Source of the DNA: Campylobacteraceae bacterium
GTDB taxonomy: Bacteria; Campylobacterota; Campylobacteria; Campylobacterales; Sulfurovaceae
Length of the DNA stretch: 64,000 nucleotides
Assembly: GCA_027081405.1 (NCBI GenBank)
Contig: JALWKO010000049.1
Location: forward strand, 43,090 to 107,089
Direction of reading: 5' to 3'
Shown: in pieces, positions 1,740 to 26,058 of the stretch
Position numbering within the stretch: the stretch's first letter is position 1
How the letters are laid out: each line of letters starts with the position of its first letter
Translations under genes and position numbers: made by a program
Notes under the pieces: generated by a model
Seen by the model: only the letters and a program-made list of their open reading frames with translations
Databases searched by the model: none
Told to the model about the DNA's origin: nothing

Positions 1740-2022
1740 TGTGTATGTCACCGACGCTTCGTCTATCGCCGAATCGGTTTCGGAATTGTTCGACGCCAGG
1801 CCGGTCGCCGTACTGGTGCCGATCGAAGACTGGGTGCGGATCGACGGAAAAGAGTCGGTCCGTTGTGTCGATATGGAAGCGGAGCTCCCGACCATCGACG
1901 ATCTTTTGCGAAACGACGTCCTGTTCATCCACTACGGGGAGGAAGCGGAACGCGACTGGACCGAAGAGCTTTGGAGCGGAGCGATCGGAGATTCGATCAT
2001 TGAGGTGAGGCTGGCCGAATGA
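1726..2022 (+). CDS. Small acidic phage protein, unknown
   Basis: A 98-residue acidic protein starting MRTLDVYVTDAS. The chosen ATG overlaps the end of the terminase small-subunit gene by 14 bases, and its stop overlaps the next ATG by four bases (ATGA). The sequence alternates short beta-like segments with acidic turns and has no motif I recognise. Its place between the two terminase genes suggests a packaging accessory factor, but this is only positional. Confidence 0.6.
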   Translation: MRTLDVYVTDASSIAESVSELFDARPVAVLVPIEDWVRIDGKESVRCVDMEAELPTIDDLLRNDVLFIHYGEEAERDWTEELWSGAIGDSIIEVRLAE

Positions 2023-3836
2023 GCGAAATGAACCGTGACGACGCGATTTTTCTCAAAGCGTGTGCAAAGAGCCTCGAATTTTTTACCGTGATGGCACTGA
2101 AGGCAAAGCCGACGCAGCAGCAGTTGCAAGTGATCCGCGCGATCGACAAAGGGAAGCGGCACATCTCGATTCGATCAGGGCATGGCTGTTTCGCAAAAGG
2201 GCATCCGGTGATGATGTTCGACGGTTCGGTGAAGCCAGTCGAGAAGGTGCGGGTGGGCGACCTGCTGATGGGCGACGACGGCAAAACGCCCCGCACCGTG
2301 CTGGAATTAAAGCGCGGACGGGAGGAGATGTACCGCTTCACGTTCAACAGTGGGGACGTCCACACCTACAACGCTTCGCACAAGCTGGTGCTGGCCGGAA
2401 TGCACGGAACCGTCGAGGTGGAGGTTAGGCATTGGCTCGACTGGCCTGCCGATATTGTGCAGAAGTTTCATCCATACAAGCGATATCCCGACGGCAGAAT
2501 CGAGCCGCTGAAAATAGCGACGGTCGAAGCTCTCGGCGTCGGTGACTACTACGGCTTCACCCTCAACGGAAACCACCGCTTTCTCTCCGGCGATTTCATC
2601 GTTACGCGGAACACCGGAAAAACGACCCTTCTTTCCTGGATCGTTCTATGGTGGGGAACGTTTCGTGAGGACGTGCGAATCCCAATGACCGCTCCGACGT
2701 CGCACCAGCTCAACGATCTACTCATGCCGGAGATTCGGAAGTGGTGGGAAAAACTGCCGGACCTACTCAAGAGCTCCGTCGAGATAAAGACGGAAAAGAT
2801 CGACTTCCCGCAGGGCTTCGCCGTAGCCCGGACGGCGCGGAAGGAGCAGCCCGAAGCGCTCCAGGGCTTCCACGCCACGAACCTGGCGTTCATCATCGAC
2901 GAGGCGTCGGGTATCCCGCAGATAATCTTCGAGGTCGCAGAGGGTGCCATGACGGGAGAGGAGACCCTTGCGATCATGGCGGCGAACCCCACGCGAACCG
3001 AAGGGTATTTTTATGACTCCCACCACAAGAACCGCTGGATGTGGGAATGTTTCCAGTTCAACGCCGAAGAGTCGGAAAACGTTTCACGCGAGTGGATCGA
3101 GCAGAAAAAGCGGCAATACGGGTATGACAGCGACGTGTATCGCGTGCGGGTAAAGGGGGAGTTTCCGTCCGCAAGCTCAAACTCCGTTTTCAGGCTGGCC
3201 GACATCGAAGACGCAATCGCAAGGGAGCAGTTCGACGATAGCGGCGCGGAGGTGTGGGCGCTCGACATCGCCGACTACGGGGACGACCGCTCCGTGCTGG
3301 TCAAGCGGAAGGGGAAGCACTTTTACTTCATCGAGGCAAGACGCGGCCTCAACCTCCCCGATCTCGTCGGATGGCTCCTGTACGAATACAAAAAAGCGCA
3401 ACGCAAGCCCGCCGTGATCTATTACGACGCGATCGGGGTCGGATCGTCGCTCGGCGCGGTCGCCTACGAAAAAGGGCTTCAGTGCGTCCACGGGGTCAAG
3501 GCTTCCAACACCGCCATCGACTATCACACATACGAGAACAAGCGTGCCGAGTGGTACTACGCCCTCTCCGAAATCCTCAAGGACGGGAAGCTCCCGGACG
3601 ACGACGAGCTCGTAGGGGAGCTGATGGCCAACAAATACAAGATTTCGGCAAGCGGGAAACTTCAACTCATCGACAAAAAGGAGATCAAGAATGAACTGGG
3701 ACGGTCGCCCGACAAGGCCGATGCACTGGCAATGTGCTGCGAGAGCTTCTCCGCTTTGGACGTTTTGGCGATCGAGGAGGAAATGGATGAAGAATATTCC
3801 GCTCCGGAGCCAATGGAAGGAAGGGCCGCATGGTAG
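2019..3836 (+). CDS. terL: Phage terminase large subunit containing an in-frame mini-intein
   Basis: This is the DNA-packaging motor ATPase and nuclease. The 605-residue precursor carries an intein at residues 57-198; the spliced protein would be 463 residues. The Walker A loop is split: SGHG precedes the intein and TGKTT follows it, giving SGHGTGKTT after splicing. Walker B is FIIDEAS near residue 291. The C-terminal RNase H-like nuclease shows its acidic residues in LDIADYGDD (about 415), YYDAIGVG (about 468) and DKADALAM (about 565). The start overlaps the previous stop (ATGA). Without splicing the P-loop cannot form, so packaging should depend on intein excision. Confidence 0.92.
   Translation: MSEMNRDDAIFLKACAKSLEFFTVMALKAKPTQQQLQVIRAIDKGKRHISIRSGHGCFAKGHPVMMFDGSVKPVEKVRVGDLLMGDDGKTPRTVLELKRGREEMYRFTFNSGDVHTYNASHKLVLAGMHGTVEVEVRHWLDWPADIVQKFHPYKRYPDGRIEPLKIATVEALGVGDYYGFTLNGNHRFLSGDFIVTRNTGKTTLLSWIVLWWGTFREDVRIPMTAPTSHQLNDLLMPEIRKWWEKLPDLLKSSVEIKTEKIDFPQGFAVARTARKEQPEALQGFHATNLAFIIDEASGIPQIIFEVAEGAMTGEETLAIMAANPTRTEGYFYDSHHKNRWMWECFQFNAEESENVSREWIEQKKRQYGYDSDVYRVRVKGEFPSASSNSVFRLADIEDAIAREQFDDSGAEVWALDIADYGDDRSVLVKRKGKHFYFIEARRGLNLPDLVGWLLYEYKKAQRKPAVIYYDAIGVGSSLGAVAYEKGLQCVHGVKASNTAIDYHTYENKRAEWYYALSEILKDGKLPDDDELVGELMANKYKISASGKLQLIDKKEIKNELGRSPDKADALAMCCESFSALDVLAIEEEMDEEYSAPEPMEGRAAW
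2187..2612 (+). other. Mini-intein in the terminase P-loop
   Basis: The intein spans 142 codons. Block A begins with the splicing nucleophile Cys57 (CFAKGHPVMMFDGSVKPVEK, then VGDLLMG). A block B-like NASHKLVL follows near residue 118. Block F/G is NGNHRFLSGDFIVTRN, ending in the terminal Asn198. The next extein residue is Thr. The usual penultimate histidine is arginine (RN in place of HN). There is no room for a homing endonuclease between blocks B and F, so this is a minimal splicing-only form. Confidence 0.9.
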
Positions 3837-4300
3837 CAGGGCAGGAGTGGGCACGGGAGCAACTTTACGATCTGGTGGACGGGGACCTGCTTCGGCTGTA
3901 CGCATTCGTACTCAAAAACGGGAATTGTCGCGTAGCGTTGTCAAAAGAGCTTGCGGTAGCGAAGATCGCTCGAGACATGGAAAGCCGTGGCGCACCAAGA
4001 AAAGCGATTCGGGAAACAGTGCGACGCTACGGTGTAAGCAGAATACCGAAGAGAAAAGCATTTCCGAAAGGATTCCTGGCTGCCGTCAGGCTTTTTGGAG
4101 ATCCAGAGCGGGTCCTCGAAAAGAGTGCCGAAGATGTAACGCTCGTCTACGTGCTCAAGCGTCGTCATATCGAATACCTCATCATCGAGGCGCTTGCAAA
4201 AGCCGGGTGGTCCCCGAGTCAGATCGTCGCCGCGACAGGCTTCGGTCGCCGCCGCGTACAAAGGATCGTCAAAAAAGTCAAGGAGCAACACAATGAGTAG
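3830..4300 (+). CDS. Probable DNA-binding phage protein with two HTH-like segments
   Basis: 156 residues, basic. The segment at about 41-70 (LAVAKIARDMESRGAPRKAIRETVRRYGVSRI) and the C-terminal segment at about 125-150 (GWSPSQIVAATGFGRRRVQRIVKK) both have helix-turn-helix spacing; the second resembles resolvase or Mor-type HTHs. The gene overlaps terL by 7 bases and the portal gene by 8 (ATGAGTAG). Position between terminase and portal suggests a packaging or late regulatory factor. I do not recognise the family. Confidence 0.55.
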   Translation: MVAGQEWAREQLYDLVDGDLLRLYAFVLKNGNCRVALSKELAVAKIARDMESRGAPRKAIRETVRRYGVSRIPKRKAFPKGFLAAVRLFGDPERVLEKSAEDVTLVYVLKRRHIEYLIIEALAKAGWSPSQIVAATGFGRRRVQRIVKKVKEQHNE

Positions 4301-5957
4301 AAAAACGAAGCAGCGCAAGCAGGCCCAAATCCTCCAGCTTATCGAGGAGGCGAAAAAGGGCTATCAGCGCTATAAAAACGACTTTGCGAAACTCGAAGAG
4401 GGATACCTCAACATCCTCGACCCAAAGCTCGTCAGAAGCCTGAAAATTCGCCGCAAGAGCCACATCACCCCACAGATCATCCGGGCCAAGGTTCGGCGCG
4501 TCGCGATTTCGATCATGAAAACGTATTTCGAGAACGACCGCTTCGCCGCCGTAACACCGGAGACGTTCGACAAGGAAATAATCGAACAGGCGAGTCGCGT
4601 GCAAGCTCGGCTCGATGTGTGGACGACAAAGAAGATCAACCTCTATTCCAGGTTCAAGCCCGCCGTGATCGACGCGCTCGTGTACGGAACGGCGATCGCC
4701 AAGGTGTGGTGGGGCAAAGGCGGGCTCAGGGTGTCAAGGGTGAAGGTGCGTGATCTGTATATCGACCCGAACGCCACGAACGTGGAGGACATCCAATATT
4801 GCGTCCATCGCGTTACGACCACAGTAGGAAAGTTGCGACGCCAATACGGTCGAAAATTCAAGTGGAAAAACTACATCGGTCAGCACGAAAACGGGAAGCT
4901 CGTAACGATTGATATCGGCGATGCGTCCCGCGTCGAGGTGCTGGATGTGTATCGCTATGAAGGGGGCAAGTGGCTCGTCTCCACCGTACTCCCGGATCAG
5001 ACCTTCATCCGTACCGACGTGGAGCTAAAAGACGGCCTGCCGTTCGTCATTGGAAACGTCGAACCCCAGTTCATTCGGTTGAGCGAAGGGAACGCCGTGG
5101 AGGCTTACGGCGGGAGCTTCATCGAGCCGATGATCCCGCTGCAAGAGGAATACACCGTCACGCGCAACCAGCAGATCGACGCGATCGACGGGATTTTCCA
5201 GCACCGCTTTTTGGCCACACGCGAATCCGGGCTCAAAGAAGAGGACCTGACCTCGAACCGGAAAAAGATCACAGTGTCCAATCTCAACATGGTCAAAGAG
5301 CTTCCGATCCCGAGGATTGACCCGTCAATCTTCGGAATCGACCGGCTCGATTCCGAAATGCAGGAGGTGAGCGGAGTAACAAAATACAACCAGGGGCTCA
5401 ACGACCCCAAAAACCTGAACCAGACGGCAACCGGAGTCTCGATTCTGACGGAAGAAGGAAACGCGGTGATCGCCGACATCACCCGCGCATTGAACGAGTC
5501 GTTTTTTGAGCCTGCGGTACGCCGCATGGCGAGACTGATCTGGAAGTACGATGAAGCGCCGGAGCTTTACGGCATCGACCGAAGCGCCGTCCCGCTTTTG
5601 CACGTCCAGATCAACGCGGGGGTCGGGGCGGTCAACAACGAGCTGCTGCTGAACAATATTTCGGCGGCTGAAGGGGTAGCGCTCCAGCTGGCTAACACCT
5701 ATGCTTCGCTCGGTGACGCCGTAGGGGCACAACGGTATCTCAGGGTGCTGGATGCGCTTTTTGAGGAGAAACTCAAAGCGCTCAAGCTGAAGACAATTAT
5801 TCCAATTGCGAAGGGAGAAGATGATGAGCGAGAGCGGATTGAAGACAGCGCAGCAGGAGCCGTTATCGGCGATGGAACTGCTGGCGGAAATGGAGGCGAC
5901 CAGGGGGTCGCTGGGCTTCCAGGTGCTGCTCCGGGAGATGGAGCAGAGATTCAATGA
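4293..5957 (+). CDS. Portal protein, podovirus type
   Basis: 554 residues from the ATG at 4293, which follows an AAGGAG site; longer in-frame extension has no site. The portal forms the dodecameric ring through which DNA is packaged and which connects head and tail. Supporting features are the length, position after terL and before scaffold and capsid, and the central helical region around residues 285-440 (EEYTVTRNQQIDAIDG, then GVTKYNQGLNDPKNLNQTATG), which matches P22/T7-like connectors. The last roughly 45 residues are Gly/Ala/Asp-rich and overlap a second gene in another frame. Confidence 0.8.
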   Translation: MSRKTKQRKQAQILQLIEEAKKGYQRYKNDFAKLEEGYLNILDPKLVRSLKIRRKSHITPQIIRAKVRRVAISIMKTYFENDRFAAVTPETFDKEIIEQASRVQARLDVWTTKKINLYSRFKPAVIDALVYGTAIAKVWWGKGGLRVSRVKVRDLYIDPNATNVEDIQYCVHRVTTTVGKLRRQYGRKFKWKNYIGQHENGKLVTIDIGDASRVEVLDVYRYEGGKWLVSTVLPDQTFIRTDVELKDGLPFVIGNVEPQFIRLSEGNAVEAYGGSFIEPMIPLQEEYTVTRNQQIDAIDGIFQHRFLATRESGLKEEDLTSNRKKITVSNLNMVKELPIPRIDPSIFGIDRLDSEMQEVSGVTKYNQGLNDPKNLNQTATGVSILTEEGNAVIADITRALNESFFEPAVRRMARLIWKYDEAPELYGIDRSAVPLLHVQINAGVGAVNNELLLNNISAAEGVALQLANTYASLGDAVGAQRYLRVLDALFEEKLKALKLKTIIPIAKGEDDERERIEDSAAGAVIGDGTAGGNGGDQGVAGLPGAAPGDGAEIQ

Positions 5958-7196: not shown

Positions 7197-8132
7197 ATGC
7201 CTCTGCTTTCGTATGGAAACATGACGAACCAAAAGCCTTCGGTGCTCGACTCCATCATCCTCCAGGGCGTGCACAGAACCCCGTTCCTGGAGTGGATGGG
7301 GCGGGGAAGCGTCGCCGCGCCCAAGCACTCCTGGATTCTCGATCGCTACCGCGAAGCGCGCGAAAACGCGAACCTCGAGGTGACCGGGCTGGAGGAGAAC
7401 ACCCAGGACACGAAGTACATGAAGGACAACGTTGTCCAGATCATCAAGAACGACTTCGGCCTTTCCAAGGAGGAGCTGAAAAACGCCAAATACGGCGAAC
7501 AGGAGTGGCCCTACCGCGTAGCCAAAGAGGGGAAGGAGCACACCAAGGACATCGAGTACGCGATCCTCGGCCTCCACAACGCTTCCGTCTACGACGGCTA
7601 TACCGCGGGGAGCAACTCGACCCCCGCAAAAATGGCCGGCATCTTCCACTTCATCGAAGACACCAACCGGAAGCACTTCGACACCAACGGGGACGGAACC
7701 GGGGACAAGACCGATCTGACCTACGACAAACTCAGCGAGGCCATTCAGCCCGTATGGGAGCGTGGCGGCCTTGAAGACGAGAGCTTCCAGCTCGTCTGTG
7801 GCCCGACGCTCAAAAAGGCGATCAACCGCTTTGCCGGGGACCAGTATTTCCGGCGTGTAAAAGAAGACGGAAAATTCGACCCCACCCTCTTCGAGCTCGA
7901 GACCGACTTCGGAACCGTTCGGGTCAAGATTCATCGACTCTTTGCCAACCCCAAGCTGGCCGACAAACTGCTCATCGGGCAGCTCAACGAGGCGCGGATC
8001 ATGTTCAAGTACATGACCGACTTCGAGGAAGTGCCCACCGACAAGACCGCCAAATTCGGACGGTACTACACCTCCTTGACCCTGGAGATGGCCCGTCCCG
8101 ACTATTTCGCCTGCGCCGACGGACTGAAGTAA
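7197..8132 (+). CDS. Major capsid protein, SU10-like (DUF5309 type)
   Basis: 311 residues, preceded by a strong AAAGGAGAG site and 111 bp after the scaffold gene, consistent with high independent expression. The layout fits the SU10/DUF5309 capsid family: an N-terminal VLDSIILQGVHRTPFLEWMG arm, a helical spine around residues 60-130, and a C-terminal beta section (FGRYYTSLTLEMARPDYF). It should build the HK97-fold head shell. The family call is by eye; the capsid role is well supported by context and length. Confidence 0.75.
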   Translation: MPLLSYGNMTNQKPSVLDSIILQGVHRTPFLEWMGRGSVAAPKHSWILDRYREARENANLEVTGLEENTQDTKYMKDNVVQIIKNDFGLSKEELKNAKYGEQEWPYRVAKEGKEHTKDIEYAILGLHNASVYDGYTAGSNSTPAKMAGIFHFIEDTNRKHFDTNGDGTGDKTDLTYDKLSEAIQPVWERGGLEDESFQLVCGPTLKKAINRFAGDQYFRRVKEDGKFDPTLFELETDFGTVRVKIHRLFANPKLADKLLIGQLNEARIMFKYMTDFEEVPTDKTAKFGRYYTSLTLEMARPDYFACADGLK

Positions 8133-15928: not shown

Positions 15929-16537
15929 ATGGTGCTACGGATCGAGACGAGCGGAATCACGAGGGGGAGGGAGTTCTCCCTTTATGCCTTTTCCGATTCC
16001 GTCCCCGCGATCGAGGCGTATGCCTACAATCCAGTGACCCGCGAAGTTGTGCCGCTGGATTGTGTGCATGGCAAATACGGAATGTTGCACAGGTTTGAAG
16101 CCGTCGCTCCCCATTTCGACGGCTTTTTAATGGCGAAGATCGGACGGCAAAAGATCGTGAAACGTATCGGCACCCCGATCCAGATCGCGTTGGTAGTCGG
16201 GTGGAAGGAGGGGTATACCGCATTCTACAAAGCGTTCGACTATCAGGGGAATGTGATCGGAGAGGGGGCGATGGATCATCTCGTCGGTCCGTTCTTTGCC
16301 TGCTCGATCCCGGACGATGCCGTAATGATGGAGGCGGCTGGTAAGCGTTTCCTTGTCAATCGAAACATCAGCCGCATGAATTACAGGATCACGATGGAGG
16401 GCGGGGAGCTCCATTCGAGCTTCGATCCTGCGATACTTGGAAACGTTGACCTGCCCGACGTGACATTTGAAGGGGCTGAGCTGGGAGACGTCACACTCGA
16501 TTCTACGCTTCCGAATATCACGATCGAGGAGTTGTAA
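15929..16537 (+). CDS. Phage tail-region protein, unknown
   Basis: 202 residues, starting one base after the previous stop. It is beta-rich throughout and ends with short repeated strand motifs (GNVDLPDVTFEGAELGDVTL, then DSTLPNITIEEL) that could form a small beta-helix or trimer tip. Its stop overlaps the ATG of the next gene (TAATG). Confidence 0.5.
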   Translation: MVLRIETSGITRGREFSLYAFSDSVPAIEAYAYNPVTREVVPLDCVHGKYGMLHRFEAVAPHFDGFLMAKIGRQKIVKRIGTPIQIALVVGWKEGYTAFYKAFDYQGNVIGEGAMDHLVGPFFACSIPDDAVMMEAAGKRFLVNRNISRMNYRITMEGGELHSSFDPAILGNVDLPDVTFEGAELGDVTLDSTLPNITIEEL

Positions 16538-17556
16538 TGGATTTGAACCTCTATAAGCAGGCGATCGCCGAGGCGCTCAACGTCGTAAACTTTGACGACG
16601 ACGCGATTATGAAGCGCGCCGAAGCACAGGTGCGTGAATTTCTCGAGACCAACACTTCGATCACAGACGACCAAAAGGCGACGATCTACGCCCAGTTCCT
16701 GACCGACACAACCACCTCCGCGATCGCGGAGGCCATACGCTCCGCTTCCCAAATTGCGCTCCAGGGGCCAGTGAACGAGCAGCAGGTCGAAAACATGCGG
16801 GGAGAGCTGGCAATCAAGCAAGCCCAGAGCGACAAAGATTTGGCCGTCAAGGATAAGCAAATCGACACGATGGAGCGCGAAACGGCGGTCAAAGAGGCGC
16901 TGAAGGATAGCGAAATCTCCGTAAACGCTCAAAAGGTCGCCTCGATGCAGGCTGAGGACAACGCCCGCAAAAACGACGTGGCCGCACGGGTGGCCAAGGC
17001 GAAGTACGAGATCGAATCGCTCCTTCCGTCCCAGACCGCAATCAACGAAAAGGAAGTTGCGCTCAAAGACAGAGAGCTGCAACTGAAAGATAAACAGATT
17101 CAGGTCGAGTCGGAGCGCATCCCGCTTATGCGCAACCAGGCGCAGACCGAAGAGAAGCGTATCGAGCTGATGAAGGTGCAGGCCGACATTGAAAAGCGCA
17201 AGCTCCCACTCATCGAAGAGCAGGCCAAGGTGGAGCACGAAAAGGTGGCGCTTACCAGAGCCCAAACCGACATCGAAAAATCGAAATTGGGCCTGATGGA
17301 GCTTGACGAGGATCTCAAAAAGGCCCAGCTTGCCATAGAAAAAGAGCGTATCTCCCTTGTCTCTACACAGGTGCTTGTAGAAGAGGAAAAAGTGCGGCTT
17401 ACCGCAAAAGAGGTGATGCTGCGTGCCGCGGAAGTTCGCTATCGGCAGGAGCAGACCGAAACGATTCGCAGGTCCCTCGAGGTAAACCTGGAGATCGAGC
17501 GCTGCAAATGCGAGACTCAGGTCAAGGTCGCCGAGCTTCAGGCAGCGAGACTATAA
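16537..17556 (+). CDS. Long helical rod protein of the virion
   Basis: 339 residues, predicted almost entirely helical from residue 80 to the end, with continuous charged segments such as KEVALKDRELQLKDKQIQVE and EKRIELMKVQADIEKRKLPL. No Pro or Gly breaks occur for long stretches, so a coiled-coil rod of up to about 35 nm is plausible. It lacks the size and transmembrane patches of a tape measure. A whisker, collar or internal rod role is likely. Confidence 0.55.
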   Translation: MDLNLYKQAIAEALNVVNFDDDAIMKRAEAQVREFLETNTSITDDQKATIYAQFLTDTTTSAIAEAIRSASQIALQGPVNEQQVENMRGELAIKQAQSDKDLAVKDKQIDTMERETAVKEALKDSEISVNAQKVASMQAEDNARKNDVAARVAKAKYEIESLLPSQTAINEKEVALKDRELQLKDKQIQVESERIPLMRNQAQTEEKRIELMKVQADIEKRKLPLIEEQAKVEHEKVALTRAQTDIEKSKLGLMELDEDLKKAQLAIEKERISLVSTQVLVEEEKVRLTAKEVMLRAAEVRYRQEQTETIRRSLEVNLEIERCKCETQVKVAELQAARL

Positions 17557-20141: not shown

Positions 20142-21083
20142 ATGAATTTCCTCGAAGTAGTCGATCCTTTGACCGGAAAAAAGACGCGCCGGGAGATGCA
20201 CCCCTCGAAGTACCAGCTCGGCAAAAGCCGGGAGCAGGGGCCGATGGGAGCATCCCAGGGGGCGCAGGGGTGGAGAGCTCAGTACGGCGATGCCGTAGGG
20301 AGATTGCTCGGAGGTATCACAGCGCAAAACGATACGCCGAAGTTCACCCCTATCACCCACTCCCTCTTGACGAACGAAGGATACAACCAAGCGCTGCAAA
20401 ACGTCTATGTGCGCAACCTCCAAAAGCTGGCTGCCCAACGCCGCCAGGCCCTCGTCGGGGCGCTCGGTAGCCTCCTCCGCCACAATGCGGCCATCAACAC
20501 GGCCAGGATTGGTGCGGCTTCCAGAATGTACGCGACCGACAAAGATTTCAAGGCCAAGACACTCGGACTTGAAGAGCAGCGTCGCTATCACGACCTTCTC
20601 AATAGCTACAATCGCGGGATGTTGCAAAACCAGCAGGAGAGGCTTCGGCTTGAGCGGGAAAAGCTGACCGCTCCCCAAAATCCGCGTCCGATCAATCCCC
20701 TTGACGCTGCAATCAAGCGCGCAAAAATCGTTCCGGATGCAAGCACATTCAAAGCGCTTATTCCGGACCGAGAGATAGCAGACGAGATCGGGAGCAAGAA
20801 TCTCAAAAAAGCCCGGATGTATTACATCCAGACTGGGAAAATGCCGAAATTCGAGAAAGAGAGCGGCTTCTTTGACGACTATGCCCCGATACCTCCGGGG
20901 CAAAAGCCCGCACCGAAGATCACCAAAGACCACATCCTATCAGTTCGCTCTGAAATCGCGAAAGACTTCGGTGTGCCGGAGGAGCAGATAGCCTTCGATC
21001 CTAAAAGGAAGATGTACGTTCTTCCTAACGGGTATGACGTTCCACTGAATAAAGCTTATGAGCGTGTTTTTGGGGACCGATAA
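20142..21083 (+). CDS. Probable internal virion / DNA ejection protein
   Basis: 313 residues from ATG 20142, which follows a GGAGG site seven bases upstream. Residues 60-200 are helical and basic with many Ala, Gln and Arg (NVYVRNLQKLAAQRRQALVG and EEQRRYHDLLNSYNRGMLQN). This is the composition of ejection proteins that line the capsid core. Its stop overlaps the start of the giant gene (TAATG); in podoviruses ejection proteins are often adjacent and co-packaged. Assignment is by context. Confidence 0.5.
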   Translation: MNFLEVVDPLTGKKTRREMHPSKYQLGKSREQGPMGASQGAQGWRAQYGDAVGRLLGGITAQNDTPKFTPITHSLLTNEGYNQALQNVYVRNLQKLAAQRRQALVGALGSLLRHNAAINTARIGAASRMYATDKDFKAKTLGLEEQRRYHDLLNSYNRGMLQNQQERLRLEREKLTAPQNPRPINPLDAAIKRAKIVPDASTFKALIPDREIADEIGSKNLKKARMYYIQTGKMPKFEKESGFFDDYAPIPPGQKPAPKITKDHILSVRSEIAKDFGVPEEQIAFDPKRKMYVLPNGYDVPLNKAYERVFGDR

Positions 21084-24000
21084 TGGCAAACGGTAAAAAT
21101 CGTTTTTTGGACATCGCCGTAAAGCGTGATGCTGAACCGAAAAATCGTTTTTTGGACATCGCCGTAAAATCCGACAATTCCCGCATAGACACGATGCCGG
21201 TAGAGGACTATGCCGAAGCAATCGATAACAAAAGCGGCACCATCGGCAGTTTCTTCAAAGGCTTCACCCACACCTTCGACGAATACGCGGCTACCCTGAA
21301 CAAGGGGCTGGATTGGGCTGCCGACAAAATCGCGGGACGCGACACCCACTACTTTGACCAGAATGTCGATTACTGGAATCGGCAGCGAAAGCAAAACGAG
21401 ATCGAAACAGCGGATCACCCTTTTGCGCATTTGGCCGGCGAGCTGCTGCTCGATCCGATCAACTTCACTCCGGCGGGGATCGCGTCGAAGGGGACGAAGC
21501 TGGCGCGAATCGCCAAGTCTGCGGCAGGAGGAGCGGCTATCGGGGCCGGAGCAACGTTCGCCCACGACTACGGAAACGTTTCGGTAAATGACGAGCAAAA
21601 AATCAAGAACATGGAGTTCGGGGCCGGGCTCGTCGCACTTGCGAATGCAGCGATCGCCGCCCTGACGAGGGGGAAGGTCTGGGATGCGATCAAGACTCCG
21701 GAGGACATTGAAAGCCCACACGCGAAAGCGGCGATCCAGGCGCTGATCGAGCGGCCCGAGGCGTTCGGGCTCGACAAGGGAAGTGTCGAGAAGATCAAGC
21801 GCGAGGCGGCGGCGAAAGAGCAAAGCGCCAAATCTGACGAGGCGTTCGATTGGGCGCGATTCGCGGAGGATTACGCGGAGCCGGATCACGGAACGGTTCT
21901 TGATGCAGAAGGGAACGTTTTGTATAGCGGAGAGGGGGCGTGGCGGGAGCTGCACACAATCGACGAGCCCCACGAGCTCCGCGCTCATGAGCAGGAGTCC
22001 GATCCTACCCCAGAGCCCGATATGGATGTGGATGCTATTTTGTCTGCGCCAATTGAGAATCTATCGGATAATCCGCTATTTCAGTATGTAGTCGATCGTG
22101 CACGAAAACGAAGCGCATCCGATATTCGGCATGGTCGGAAGCTTGAGTTCGATCGTGACTTTCGTTACACGCATGACGGCGCGAAGTGGGGCGCGGAGAT
22201 CAGCCCCGCCGTGTACTCCCCAAACTACGAAGCCGATTTTGCGCTGACGAAGGGGGACGTCAAAAAGATCGAGGCGGGCAAGATCACGCCGGAGATCGAG
22301 GAAAAGATTCGGCACGATATGCGGGTAATGCTCGAGCATCCCGACTGGGCCGATGAAGGGACGGCGATTCTCTCGGGTAAACGAGGGGCTCCGCTTGATG
22401 AGGTGCGGCTCAACGAAAACGGAGAGCTCGTAGGCCCCGACGGTGTACCAATCTTTGCAAATGGGATTCCGAGCCTGGCCGTAGGCGTTGGAGCCGGGAC
22501 CTACAACGCCATTTCCGGTGAGTACGATCCGAACCGGGACTTCATGAGCCAGATCGAGCAGAAGTTCCTCCAGGGACTGATCTACGGAACCCTTGGAACC
22601 CTTGCACTGAAACAGTTGCGTCACATTGCGCCAGAAAGCTATGAACGTGTGCGAAAAGCTGTGCTTGAAAATTCTTATCGGGACGCGGACGGTTCGATTC
22701 GGCTCAACGCCAACGCCCTGGAGTCGAAGTACCTGCGCAGGGGACGCGGCGGTGAGCGCGTCAACGAGTCGGCGCTGATGCGCGAAGCCGCCACGCTGCC
22801 GGAACCTATCAAGAGTTATCAGGAGTTTAAGGCAAACTTCTTATCGGCCCCAGATGGGCGCACATATATCGAAACGCCCGTTGGAAGAGTCTACGCCAAC
22901 GCAATGAAAGTATGGGGACATTTGACGGACAATACGCATTTTGACGATAGGGGGTATATCAGCGGCGCCTTCGCGGATACGATGCGCGATCCGCTCTTTG
23001 TGGTGAAGCAGCCGTATAAAGATGATTGGAATATCGTTTTCTATAAGCCGTTCAAGGGAGAAGACGGACACTATCATATCGCCGCTTTTGCGGTAGATAG
23101 AAACGGGGAGTTGGTCAACAAAACTTTTTTTGAGTTGAGCGATCTTTCCAAATTAAAGAAGATGATAAAAGTACCGGATAGGAACCTATTGTATGAGAAG
23201 CGCCTCAATCAGCCGACTCCCGAAGGAAGCCCTGATTACACTTCGCACGCTAAAAGCAGCGTGGAAAAAGACGCTAATGCAATTGTAGCAGATGACGACA
23301 ACGGCGTCAAGATCGGGATGTTTGCCGGAGACAAGCCTTATACGAGACCGAGCGGGCCGGACGATTTCAAATTTGAAAAGGCCGTAGTCAGACACGCAAA
23401 AGAGTGGGCGCAGGAGCTCAATCCGTTTTCAAAATCCGACACGAGCGCGCACTTGAAGCGGATCATCGACGATCAGTTTACAAGGGAATGGAAAAAGATC
23501 GACAACAGCCTGAAGGGGTCGTTCAACCGGTGGTTTAGAAACACCCTCTCTGGGGAATATATGAGCAAGCGCGAAGAGGTGATGTCCGGACGCCACGAGG
23601 CGATCAAAGAGGCCGAAAAGCTGCACGCCGCGTTGATGCACTTGAGCGAATCTGACCGGAAGATGCTGCATGAGTATATCGTCGGCGACATCGACGACGC
23701 GCCGGAGCACGTCAAGGCGATTGCAGAAAATATCCGCGCAACGGTCCACGACCTCCAGGAGAAAATCCGGGATGCCGGGATTCTGCCGGACGAGGCGATC
23801 GACGCGTGGGGCAAATACTACCTCAAGCGGCTCTACGACCCCTACTACAACGCAGACAATCCGGTACAGTGGGTCAAGCGCTCCATGACGATCCCGAAAA
23901 TGAAGCGTCGGGGGAAAGAAGAGATTGTCACGATGGATGAATTTCGGCAGATGGTCGAAGACGGCGAAATCCCCACAGAGAATCTGACAATCGACCCAGA

Positions 24001-25624
24001 AAGCGGGGAGCTTGTGCCCACACGCGCACTATCGCTAAAAGACGGCGGGGTAGAAATCGACTTCATCGGCAAGAATCGGGTGCGAATCCGCCGCGACTGG
24101 ACCAAAGAGGAGCGGGAGGCGATGGGGGAGATCACCGATGCGGCGATCACCGTGCCCGAAACGGTGCTCCACCTCAAGCTGCTCCTCGAGCATTCAAAAT
24201 TCCTCGATGCCGTCGCAAGAGTGGATGGCTCGGTCGTCCTCCCGGATGAGGCGGCAAAGCTCGGGGAGGACTGGCTCAAGGCAAACGGATACACGAAGCT
24301 CGGCTCCGATCCGCGCTATGGCCCGCTTGCCGGGCAGTGGGTGCGCGACGACGTGGCCAATGACATCAAAGGGGTGTCTGAGATCAACTTTGGAAAAGAC
24401 GGGGATGCGCTGATCCACCTGTGGCGCCGCTATCTGGCGCTCTGGAAAAAGTCCAAAACCGTCTGGAACGCGACAACACACCTGAACAACCTCGTGTCGA
24501 ACTTTTTCCTGATGCACCTTGCAGGGCTTGGGTGGAAAGACATCGGGCAGCGCTTCGTGCAGGCGGCGGCGGAGATGAAGGCGGGATCGAGATTGGACGA
24601 TCTCGAGAAGAAGGCGGCGATCAATGCACTCTCCGAAAGTGAAAGGGCCGAACTTGCGCGATTATCTGAGGAGCTGAAATACTACAAAGAGGCGTCCAGG
24701 ATGGGGCTGCTCAACACCTCCTTCGTCGAAGATATTGCAGCCGGAGAGGGGAAGGGAGCGCATTTTGGTGTGCGTTCAAAGCTCGGGGAGCTGGACAAAT
24801 GGCTTTCCGATCGATACCAGGCCGAAGACGCTGTGAACAAGCTGGCAATGTATAGACACCTCCGTGAGCAGGGCTGGAGCCCTTCCGAGGCGCGACGGGG
24901 AGTCGAAGCGATCATGCCGGACTATTCGGCTCCGATGGCAAAAGGGATCAAAGCGGCCCGTGACACTGGAGTGACCCCGTTTATCGCATGGGCCTATTTC
25001 ACCTATCCGAAAATCCTTTCGATGCTCAAAACGAAGCGGGGAATGATCCAGGCCGGGAAGGTGATCGGCACCTTTTACGGATTGAGCTACCTCCTAACCG
25101 GGATCGGGAACCCCTACTCGAATGCTCTCCCCGACGATGCGAAAGCGAAGCGTGTGCCGGTCTGGCGCGACGGAAACAAAATAACTACCGTCAAGATGGA
25201 TCGGTTGGTGCCCTATATGCAATTCATGAGTCCTCTATCGACTGGGGCGGAGTTTATCGGGCAGGGCATCCCCCAGGCTGTGTTGTCGAACGTCGTCGGA
25301 ACGAAAATCTACAATAGCCGACCTGTAACATCGACAACGAAACCGGCTGGGCAGCAGCTCTACGATAAGGCGAAGTATTTCGTGCAGAGCCTAACCCCGA
25401 TCCCGCAGCAGGTCAACAGCGGGTGGGATTTTATCGAGTCTCTCCTCCGGTCCGAAAATAACCGGAAGCGCTCCAGCGACATCGTTCCCAGGACGCCGGC
25501 ACAGCAGATCATCAAACTGTTTCCGGGGATCAACATTCTCACGTATGACGAAGAGCGGGTGCGAAAACGGAACAAACGACAAAACACCGTTTCGTCGTTC
25601 CTCGGAGACCTGTTAGGGTACTAA
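21083..25624 (+). CDS. Giant polyvalent internal virion protein with PBECR-like nuclease domain
   Basis: 1,513 residues. The N terminus repeats KNRFLDIAVK twice. Two hydrophobic Ala/Gly stretches lie near residues 143-160 and 178-195. Residues about 580-715 resemble the phage-encoded Barnase/EndoU/colicin/RelE-like (PBECR) nuclease families: a YIETPVGRVYAN strand, a candidate catalytic His613 in WGHL, RGYISGAFADTMRDPLFVV, then strands ending in an LLYEKR motif. Residues about 820-930 and 1040-1500 are helical and look like large polyvalent-protein associated domains. A hydrophobic helix lies near 1325-1345. Such proteins are packaged and injected with DNA. The length fits an ejection protein; the nuclease call is by eye. 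Confidence 0.65.
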   Translation: MANGKNRFLDIAVKRDAEPKNRFLDIAVKSDNSRIDTMPVEDYAEAIDNKSGTIGSFFKGFTHTFDEYAATLNKGLDWAADKIAGRDTHYFDQNVDYWNRQRKQNEIETADHPFAHLAGELLLDPINFTPAGIASKGTKLARIAKSAAGGAAIGAGATFAHDYGNVSVNDEQKIKNMEFGAGLVALANAAIAALTRGKVWDAIKTPEDIESPHAKAAIQALIERPEAFGLDKGSVEKIKREAAAKEQSAKSDEAFDWARFAEDYAEPDHGTVLDAEGNVLYSGEGAWRELHTIDEPHELRAHEQESDPTPEPDMDVDAILSAPIENLSDNPLFQYVVDRARKRSASDIRHGRKLEFDRDFRYTHDGAKWGAEISPAVYSPNYEADFALTKGDVKKIEAGKITPEIEEKIRHDMRVMLEHPDWADEGTAILSGKRGAPLDEVRLNENGELVGPDGVPIFANGIPSLAVGVGAGTYNAISGEYDPNRDFMSQIEQKFLQGLIYGTLGTLALKQLRHIAPESYERVRKAVLENSYRDADGSIRLNANALESKYLRRGRGGERVNESALMREAATLPEPIKSYQEFKANFLSAPDGRTYIETPVGRVYANAMKVWGHLTDNTHFDDRGYISGAFADTMRDPLFVVKQPYKDDWNIVFYKPFKGEDGHYHIAAFAVDRNGELVNKTFFELSDLSKLKKMIKVPDRNLLYEKRLNQPTPEGSPDYTSHAKSSVEKDANAIVADDDNGVKIGMFAGDKPYTRPSGPDDFKFEKAVVRHAKEWAQELNPFSKSDTSAHLKRIIDDQFTREWKKIDNSLKGSFNRWFRNTLSGEYMSKREEVMSGRHEAIKEAEKLHAALMHLSESDRKMLHEYIVGDIDDAPEHVKAIAENIRATVHDLQEKIRDAGILPDEAIDAWGKYYLKRLYDPYYNADNPVQWVKRSMTIPKMKRRGKEEIVTMDEFRQMVEDGEIPTENLTIDPESGELVPTRALSLKDGGVEIDFIGKNRVRIRRDWTKEEREAMGEITDAAITVPETVLHLKLLLEHSKFLDAVARVDGSVVLPDEAAKLGEDWLKANGYTKLGSDPRYGPLAGQWVRDDVANDIKGVSEINFGKDGDALIHLWRRYLALWKKSKTVWNATTHLNNLVSNFFLMHLAGLGWKDIGQRFVQAAAEMKAGSRLDDLEKKAAINALSESERAELARLSEELKYYKEASRMGLLNTSFVEDIAAGEGKGAHFGVRSKLGELDKWLSDRYQAEDAVNKLAMYRHLREQGWSPSEARRGVEAIMPDYSAPMAKGIKAARDTGVTPFIAWAYFTYPKILSMLKTKRGMIQAGKVIGTFYGLSYLLTGIGNPYSNALPDDAKAKRVPVWRDGNKITTVKMDRLVPYMQFMSPLSTGAEFIGQGIPQAVLSNVVGTKIYNSRPVTSTTKPAGQQLYDKAKYFVQSLTPIPQQVNSGWDFIESLLRSENNRKRSSDIVPRTPAQQIIKLFPGINILTYDEERVRKRNKRQNTVSSFLGDLLGY
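21095..21168 (+). repeat. 29-bp direct repeat encoding a duplicated N-terminal motif
   Basis: Identical 29-bp copies at 21095-21123 and 21140-21168 are 45 bp apart, so both stay in frame and each encodes KNRFLDIAVK. Exact DNA identity suggests a recent duplication. The peptide may be a packaging or processing tag. Confidence 0.85.
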
Positions 25625-25641: not shown

Positions 25642-26058
25642 ATGGGCCTGCTTGATTTCAATATTTCCGACATCGGCGACGTGCTGATAAAGGCACGGGA
25701 GGCAATCACCGGCAAGGGGGTTGAGGACCCTGTTAAAAAAGCGGAAATTGCTCTGAAGCTCCAGCAATTGGAGCAGGCGATCAATATGGGGCAAATCGAA
25801 GTCAACAAAGAGGAGGCGAAGAGCCCGAATCTCTTTGTGGCTGGGTGGCGTCCTTTCATCGGCTGGGTTGGGGGTGTGGCGATCGCCTACAATTTCATCG
25901 TCGCCCCCACGGCGGTTTGGATTGCCGCCCTCAACGGCGCTCAAGCCACGCTGCCGACCATAGACACCGGAGTGCTCTTCAATCTCGTGTTGGCAATGCT
26001 CGGCTTCGGCGGCCTCCGCACGTACGAAAAACTAAAGAACGTCCAGGGGAATCACTGA
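25642..26058 (+). CDS. Holin, GTA_holin_3TM-like
   Basis: 138 residues with an AAAAGGAG site. After an amphipathic N-terminal half (residues 1-65), the signature GWRPFIGWVGGVAIAYNFIV begins the first membrane segment. A second hydrophobic stretch (AVWIAALNGA, then TGVLFNLVLAMLGFGG) and the RTYEKLK end complete the pattern known from the 3TM holin family of gene transfer agents and phages. Holins form inner-membrane lesions that release or activate the endolysin. No endolysin gene is adjacent. The stop overlaps the next start (TGATG). Confidence 0.85.
   Translation: MGLLDFNISDIGDVLIKAREAITGKGVEDPVKKAEIALKLQQLEQAINMGQIEVNKEEAKSPNLFVAGWRPFIGWVGGVAIAYNFIVAPTAVWIAALNGAQATLPTIDTGVLFNLVLAMLGFGGLRTYEKLKNVQGNH

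Follow-up and report, generated by a model that had tools for sequence, protein, structure and literature searches.

What does a nuclease-like domain do in the middle of a giant phage virion protein? The question is raised by a 64,000-nucleotide stretch of a Campylobacteraceae bacterium (assembly GCA_027081405.1, contig JALWKO010000049.1, positions 43,090 to 107,089 of the forward strand; hereafter the window), in which a prophage gene (21083..25624, + strand) encodes a protein of 1,513 residues. Its open frame, a PHROG 342 match and orthologues mark the product as a predicted internal virion (ejection) protein, and an earlier note on this DNA had placed a PBECR-like toxin nuclease domain at 22780-23240. 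The open reading frame exists, and that stretch corresponds to residues about 567-719 and encloses the whole of a conserved domain, residues 572-707 (22796..23203, + strand), recognised by a PBECR2 match, profile comparison, residue conservation and predicted fold. We consider it probable that this domain is a PBECR2-related, metal-independent endoribonuclease of the Barnase/EndoU/colicin/RelE (BECR) fold, carried as cargo in an ejected T7 gp16-type internal virion protein of the prophage.

Scanned alone, the domain stretch matched the Pfam family PBECR2 (PF18810) with an E value of 5.7e-4 (20.5 bits), and a shorter cut gave 6.9e-4 (20.3 bits). A search profile built from the window domain, the copy in a neighbouring prophage and a Helicobacter cinaedi relative found matches in 22 of the 397 phylum genomes and in 9 of the 175 family genomes searched, the window's own counted in both, and the PBECR2 model matched in 48 of 249 genomes, in none of 14 control genomes and not in the window's own. 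Eight places were matched by both models, seven of them above the PBECR2 cut-off. When a 23-member domain profile was compared with a 14-member PBECR2 profile in hhalign, the two aligned collinearly with a probability of 72.7% (E 3.2e-5), against 0.1% for two unrelated decoy profiles. A 35-row family profile scored the window domain at 135.5 bits, against 8.8 bits for the highest-scoring of 1,000 shuffled copies (917 reported). Its rows omit the window's own two copies, but because the model used to gather them did include the window's copy, this is not a completely independent control. The resemblance to PBECR2 is thus more than chance, and the assignment to a PBECR2-related family with a BECR fold is supported. 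Single-protein scans of genome contigs and viral contigs with the domain returned no match, and neither the domain profile nor the full protein had a convincing sequence match among solved structures. The profile check therefore bears out the PBECR part of the earlier proposal, and the MuF-C part was dropped, as no BECR family other than PBECR2 matched. Nor could polyvalent-protein associated domains be recovered in the helical flanks, where the earlier note had suspected them: no Pfam LPD family matched there even at E <= 10, and LPD23 was clear only in one orthologue (L018). Solo versions of the domain, 171 residues long, also occur (L057 1480-1995, - strand; L061 1417-1932, + strand), as if each were the final gene of an integrated element; the gene directly before them is of the tyrosine-integrase type.

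The predicted fold agrees with this assignment, as the earlier note had anticipated. Two models of the domain (predicted local distance difference test scores 77.2 for model 1 and 79.4 for model 2) both show two helices and a four-strand sheet in the BECR arrangement; in model 1 the helices span positions 48-56 and 64-76 and the strands 80-86, 89-99, 105-113 and 118-125 (model positions), with the same arrangement in model 2. VIA-align placed colicin D tRNase chains at ranks 1-3 for model 1 (Z 4.7, 4.5 and 4.1; 74-82 residues, root-mean-square deviation 3.0-3.1), followed by the contact-dependent inhibition (CDI) toxin 6cp9 (Z 3.9), and for model 2 had 7m5f (3.8) and 6cp9 (3.6) near the top. 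Foldseek with model 2 listed 6cp9 at ranks 1, 2, 4 and 10 (E 0.07-0.12). In a library of predicted viral structures, the matches were headed by polyvalent-protein entries of podoviruses (E 1.5e-4 and 6.2e-4). The solved-structure lists for both models also hold many unrelated small alpha/beta proteins with Z near 3; the Z values alone prove nothing, but the leading rows are mostly of the fold class expected. In the review PMC9086364, 6cp9 is classed as a BECR tRNase whose active site includes His, Arg and Thr.

Residues of this type are conserved in the window domain. In an alignment of 37 rows, which represent 36 places (L027 and L049 are one place, counted twice), cover matches with a fetched locus only and leave out six partial domain matches, His613 (22919..22921, + strand, codon CAT) is His in 33 rows, Arg623 (22949..22951, +) is invariant (37/37), Lys655 of the FYKPFK motif (23045..23047, +) is kept in 34, and Thr681 (23123..23125, +) is Thr in 33 and Ser in 4. 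One Pro is likewise invariant in all 37. In both models His613 sits in the first, N-terminal core helix and Arg623 opens the second, while strand 2 carries Lys655 and strand 4 carries Thr681. The window domain and the neighbouring prophage's copy both retain all four residues. His613, already singled out in the earlier note, is the right catalytic candidate. Some relatives (L050, L027, L034 and L052) have an insertion of roughly 25-45 residues ahead of the FYKPF strand.

Comparison with orthologues showed that the domain lies in a variable slot. Four of 60 related genomes, one of them the window's own, have a whole-protein orthologue, and so does one viral contig. The protein of genome G011 is 38-72% identical to the window protein over residues 51-200 (in 50-residue bins) and 40-66% identical in 12 of 13 bins over residues 851-1500 (18% in 951-1000), and covers only 0-12% of window residues 601-750. 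Its slot instead contains a match to a peptidase family (DUF6782, 8e-10) and the motif LHEAQH. The slot of G016 has a similar HEIQH motif, and that of G056 has LPD23 (L018, 7.9e-20), then HEIQH, plus a DUF3519-like part (E 0.002; L018 3146-3499) that is probably BECR-like. In the viral contig orthologue, an HEVQH motif and a PBECR2-like domain occur together, and a Helicobacter bilis open reading frame has HEIQH and then the domain. The window protein and the neighbouring prophage's copy have only the nuclease-like domain in the slot; recognised effector domains number one in the window protein and two in the L022 orthologue. Because related phages fill the slot with a peptidase-like or another BECR-like domain, the slot looks exchangeable, and the nuclease-like domain looks like cargo and not part of the ejection machine. 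A stretch of a Helicobacter pullorum prophage protein (L021 4206-4600) resembles the DUF3519-like part of G056 and has no convincing Pfam match; the two are possibly further BECR-like domains.

A second, related prophage virion cluster lies upstream of the window on the same contig (L005, G000:C49:10000-28500), and its copy of the giant protein has 1,444 residues. The two proteins share 94% identity in residues 1-50 and 60-86% in residues 351-750, against about 22-46% in most other aligned bins, where the G011 protein is mostly closer to that of the window. At the DNA level, identity is 91.4% in a 395-base segment spanning the gene start (20897-21291) and 84.6% in a 130-base segment immediately past the domain, against about 71% over most of the remaining aligned sequence. 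Recombination between the co-resident prophages would be the simplest reading of this patchy identity. More tentatively, and as a proposal to which we give somewhat less than even credence, the middle of the protein may be a general cargo bay between conserved ejection-scaffold ends, in which effectors (a PBECR2-like RNase, an HExxH peptidase, both, or another BECR-like domain) are swapped by co-resident prophages through recombination. A helical, repeat-rich protein of the virion cluster also differs between the two prophages, with 339 residues in the window (16537-17556) and 570 in the neighbour (L005 7371-9083), which has extra internal repeats.

The giant gene sits amid prophage virion and lysis genes, all on the + strand: the terminase large subunit (2019..3836; PHROG 2, 7.3e-41), a portal/head-tail adaptor (4194..5957; PHROG 332 and 1216), the major head protein (7197..8132; PHROG 1328, 2.1e-49) and a holin (GTA_holin_3TM, 25642..26058), beyond which lie host-type genes. 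Directly upstream, a 313-residue virion-cluster gene (20142..21083, with the ATG at 20142 chosen by us as its start) overlaps the start of the giant gene with its stop, and its 3' end is 91% identical to the neighbouring prophage. Residues 77-240 of the giant protein (21311..21802, +), an N-terminal scaffold part kept in orthologues, match the PHROG 342 internal virion protein (1.1e-6), a family of the T7 gp16 type. With the ends scanned separately, the C-terminal part gave a weak second, collinear PHROG 342 match (E 0.02); this C-terminal scaffold (residues 786-1504, 23438..25594, +) is common to orthologues without the nuclease domain. Because of the virion-gene context and the PHROG 342 matches, ejection of the protein with the genome is a reasonable inference. 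A Pfam scan of the full-length protein matched no family, and so no MuF domain either. Among the open reading frames of the window, no gene of immunity size follows the giant gene; the holin starts 17 bases after its stop, leaving no room for one. The N terminus of the window protein (21083-21190) contains a short tandem peptide repeat, KNRFLDIAVK, present twice, and the N termini of orthologues each have a tandem repeat of their own (MFDDLKPTKQR-type, five times, in L022; NPYDQFS-type in L017; MAEEFLKRT-type in L016); these repeats are possibly a docking or packaging tag.

Under the PBECR2-related nuclease reading, the giant protein would be a late product, packaged into the head and delivered together with the genome, as gene context and the scaffold match suggest. 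Inside the newly infected cell, His613, Arg623, Lys655 and Thr681 would cut the RNA phosphodiester bond next to the 2'-OH. Colicin D and CDI toxins suggest, by analogy, host tRNA or mRNA as the likeliest target, and such cutting could swing the cell toward takeover by the phage or turn it against a rival element. Since no immunity gene adjoins, self-protection would rest on timing and packaging, with late expression and enclosure in the head limiting self-harm.

Whether the domain is a nuclease at all, and what it would be aimed at, has to be weighed against other explanations. A BECR relative that is catalytically dead or only binds RNA could have a structural function; Iyer et al. (PMC5512222) propose this for MuF of phage Mu, where they infer an inactive PBECR domain. 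The 4 of 37 aligned rows without the His would fit this. The retention of His, Arg, Lys and Thr in both the window domain and the neighbour's copy speaks for an active site, however, and the domain seems dispensable for structure because orthologues keep the scaffold without it, so that we regard a dead or structural domain as unlikely. If the domain is active, its substrate could be CRISPR RNA, with the effect of blunting host immunity, an option raised by Iyer et al. (PMC5512222), who suggest it for Helicobacter proteins. The host genome does have two cas1 places, but cas1 is not enriched with PBECR2: it is present in 17 of the 48 genomes that have PBECR2 and in 100 of the 201 that lack it (odds 0.55, Fisher p 0.079, lineage not controlled, assuming that both searches covered the same 249 genomes), and we think this target quite improbable. 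A use in conflict between phages, with the RNase aimed at cells holding a rival element or serving like MuF toxins as a polymorphic toxin against competitors, would suit both the differences in the slot among related phages and the domain segment common to the two neighbouring prophages; as the main role of the domain, we find it rather doubtful.

Several observations weigh against a PBECR2-related nuclease in an ejected T7 gp16-type protein. Both PBECR2 scores, 20.5 and 20.3 bits, lie below the curated cut-off of 27.1 bits, and for this reason the domain is filed as PBECR2-related and not as PBECR2. The neighbouring prophage's copy has no Pfam match of any kind, and of 23 family members just 3 reach PBECR2 at E <= 0.01, without the window's 136-residue version being one of the three. 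Among 14 aligned PBECR2 members, none of the His columns is invariant, and therefore the active sites of PBECR2 and the window domain may differ. The PDB fold matches are weak, with no Foldseek E <= 0.001 for either model and VIA Z below 5, and colicin D ranks only 12 for model 2. As for the scaffold, the link to the T7 gp16 type is weak (28 bits), and neither half matched any PDB sequence in a scaffold-profile search of solved structures. The low raw PBECR2 score and the weak PDB fold scores would also be expected of a chance resemblance or another fold, an explanation that we consider very unlikely in view of the places shared with the curated family, the contrast with decoys and the conserved residues.

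The kind of protein is already known, because PBECR domains in mosaic, presumably injected Helicobacter phage proteins are the subject of Iyer et al. 2017 (PMC5512222). New here are the member itself, its His-bearing subfamily, most of which escapes the public model, and a single slot in which nuclease and peptidase clearly replace each other; a limited literature search found no functional study of PBECR2. The His-bearing PBECR2-related subfamily is thereby placed in an internal virion protein with a variable slot, whose variation among close relatives offers a compact set of natural swaps for studying injected phage effectors.

Among known systems, MuF polymorphic toxins likewise fuse a virion protein to a variable toxin domain; they have downstream immunity genes according to PMC5576092, whereas the window protein lacks both a MuF domain in the Pfam scan and a downstream gene of immunity size. 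With polyvalent proteins the window protein shares the virion-gene setting, but it has one recognised effector domain where they have several disparate ones. The BECR tRNases colicin D and CdiA-CT Kp342 are the best solved fold matches, though weak ones; they have paired immunity proteins, are at most 15% identical to the window domain and use another delivery route. CdiA-CT Kp342 has, according to PMC9086364, an active site of the His/Arg/Thr type, comparable to the conserved residues of the window domain. The T7 gp16-type internal virion protein (PHROG 342) matches weakly and collinearly at both scaffold ends, but its endolysin part is unmatched in the window protein, which has a slot of several hundred residues between the matching parts. 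The Helicobacter jhp1044-type mosaic polyvalent proteins are also phage proteins with PBECR domains and mosaicism, and a relative of the window domain (33.6%) adjoins a jhp1044-like gene in an H. cinaedi prophage; their scaffold differs from that of the window protein, which has one such domain and not several. Finally, the window domain differs from PBECR2 (PF18810) of phage polyvalent proteins in its score below the cut-off, its retained His and its FYKPF motif, and resembles it in the jointly matched places, the collinear profiles and the conserved Arg and Pro.
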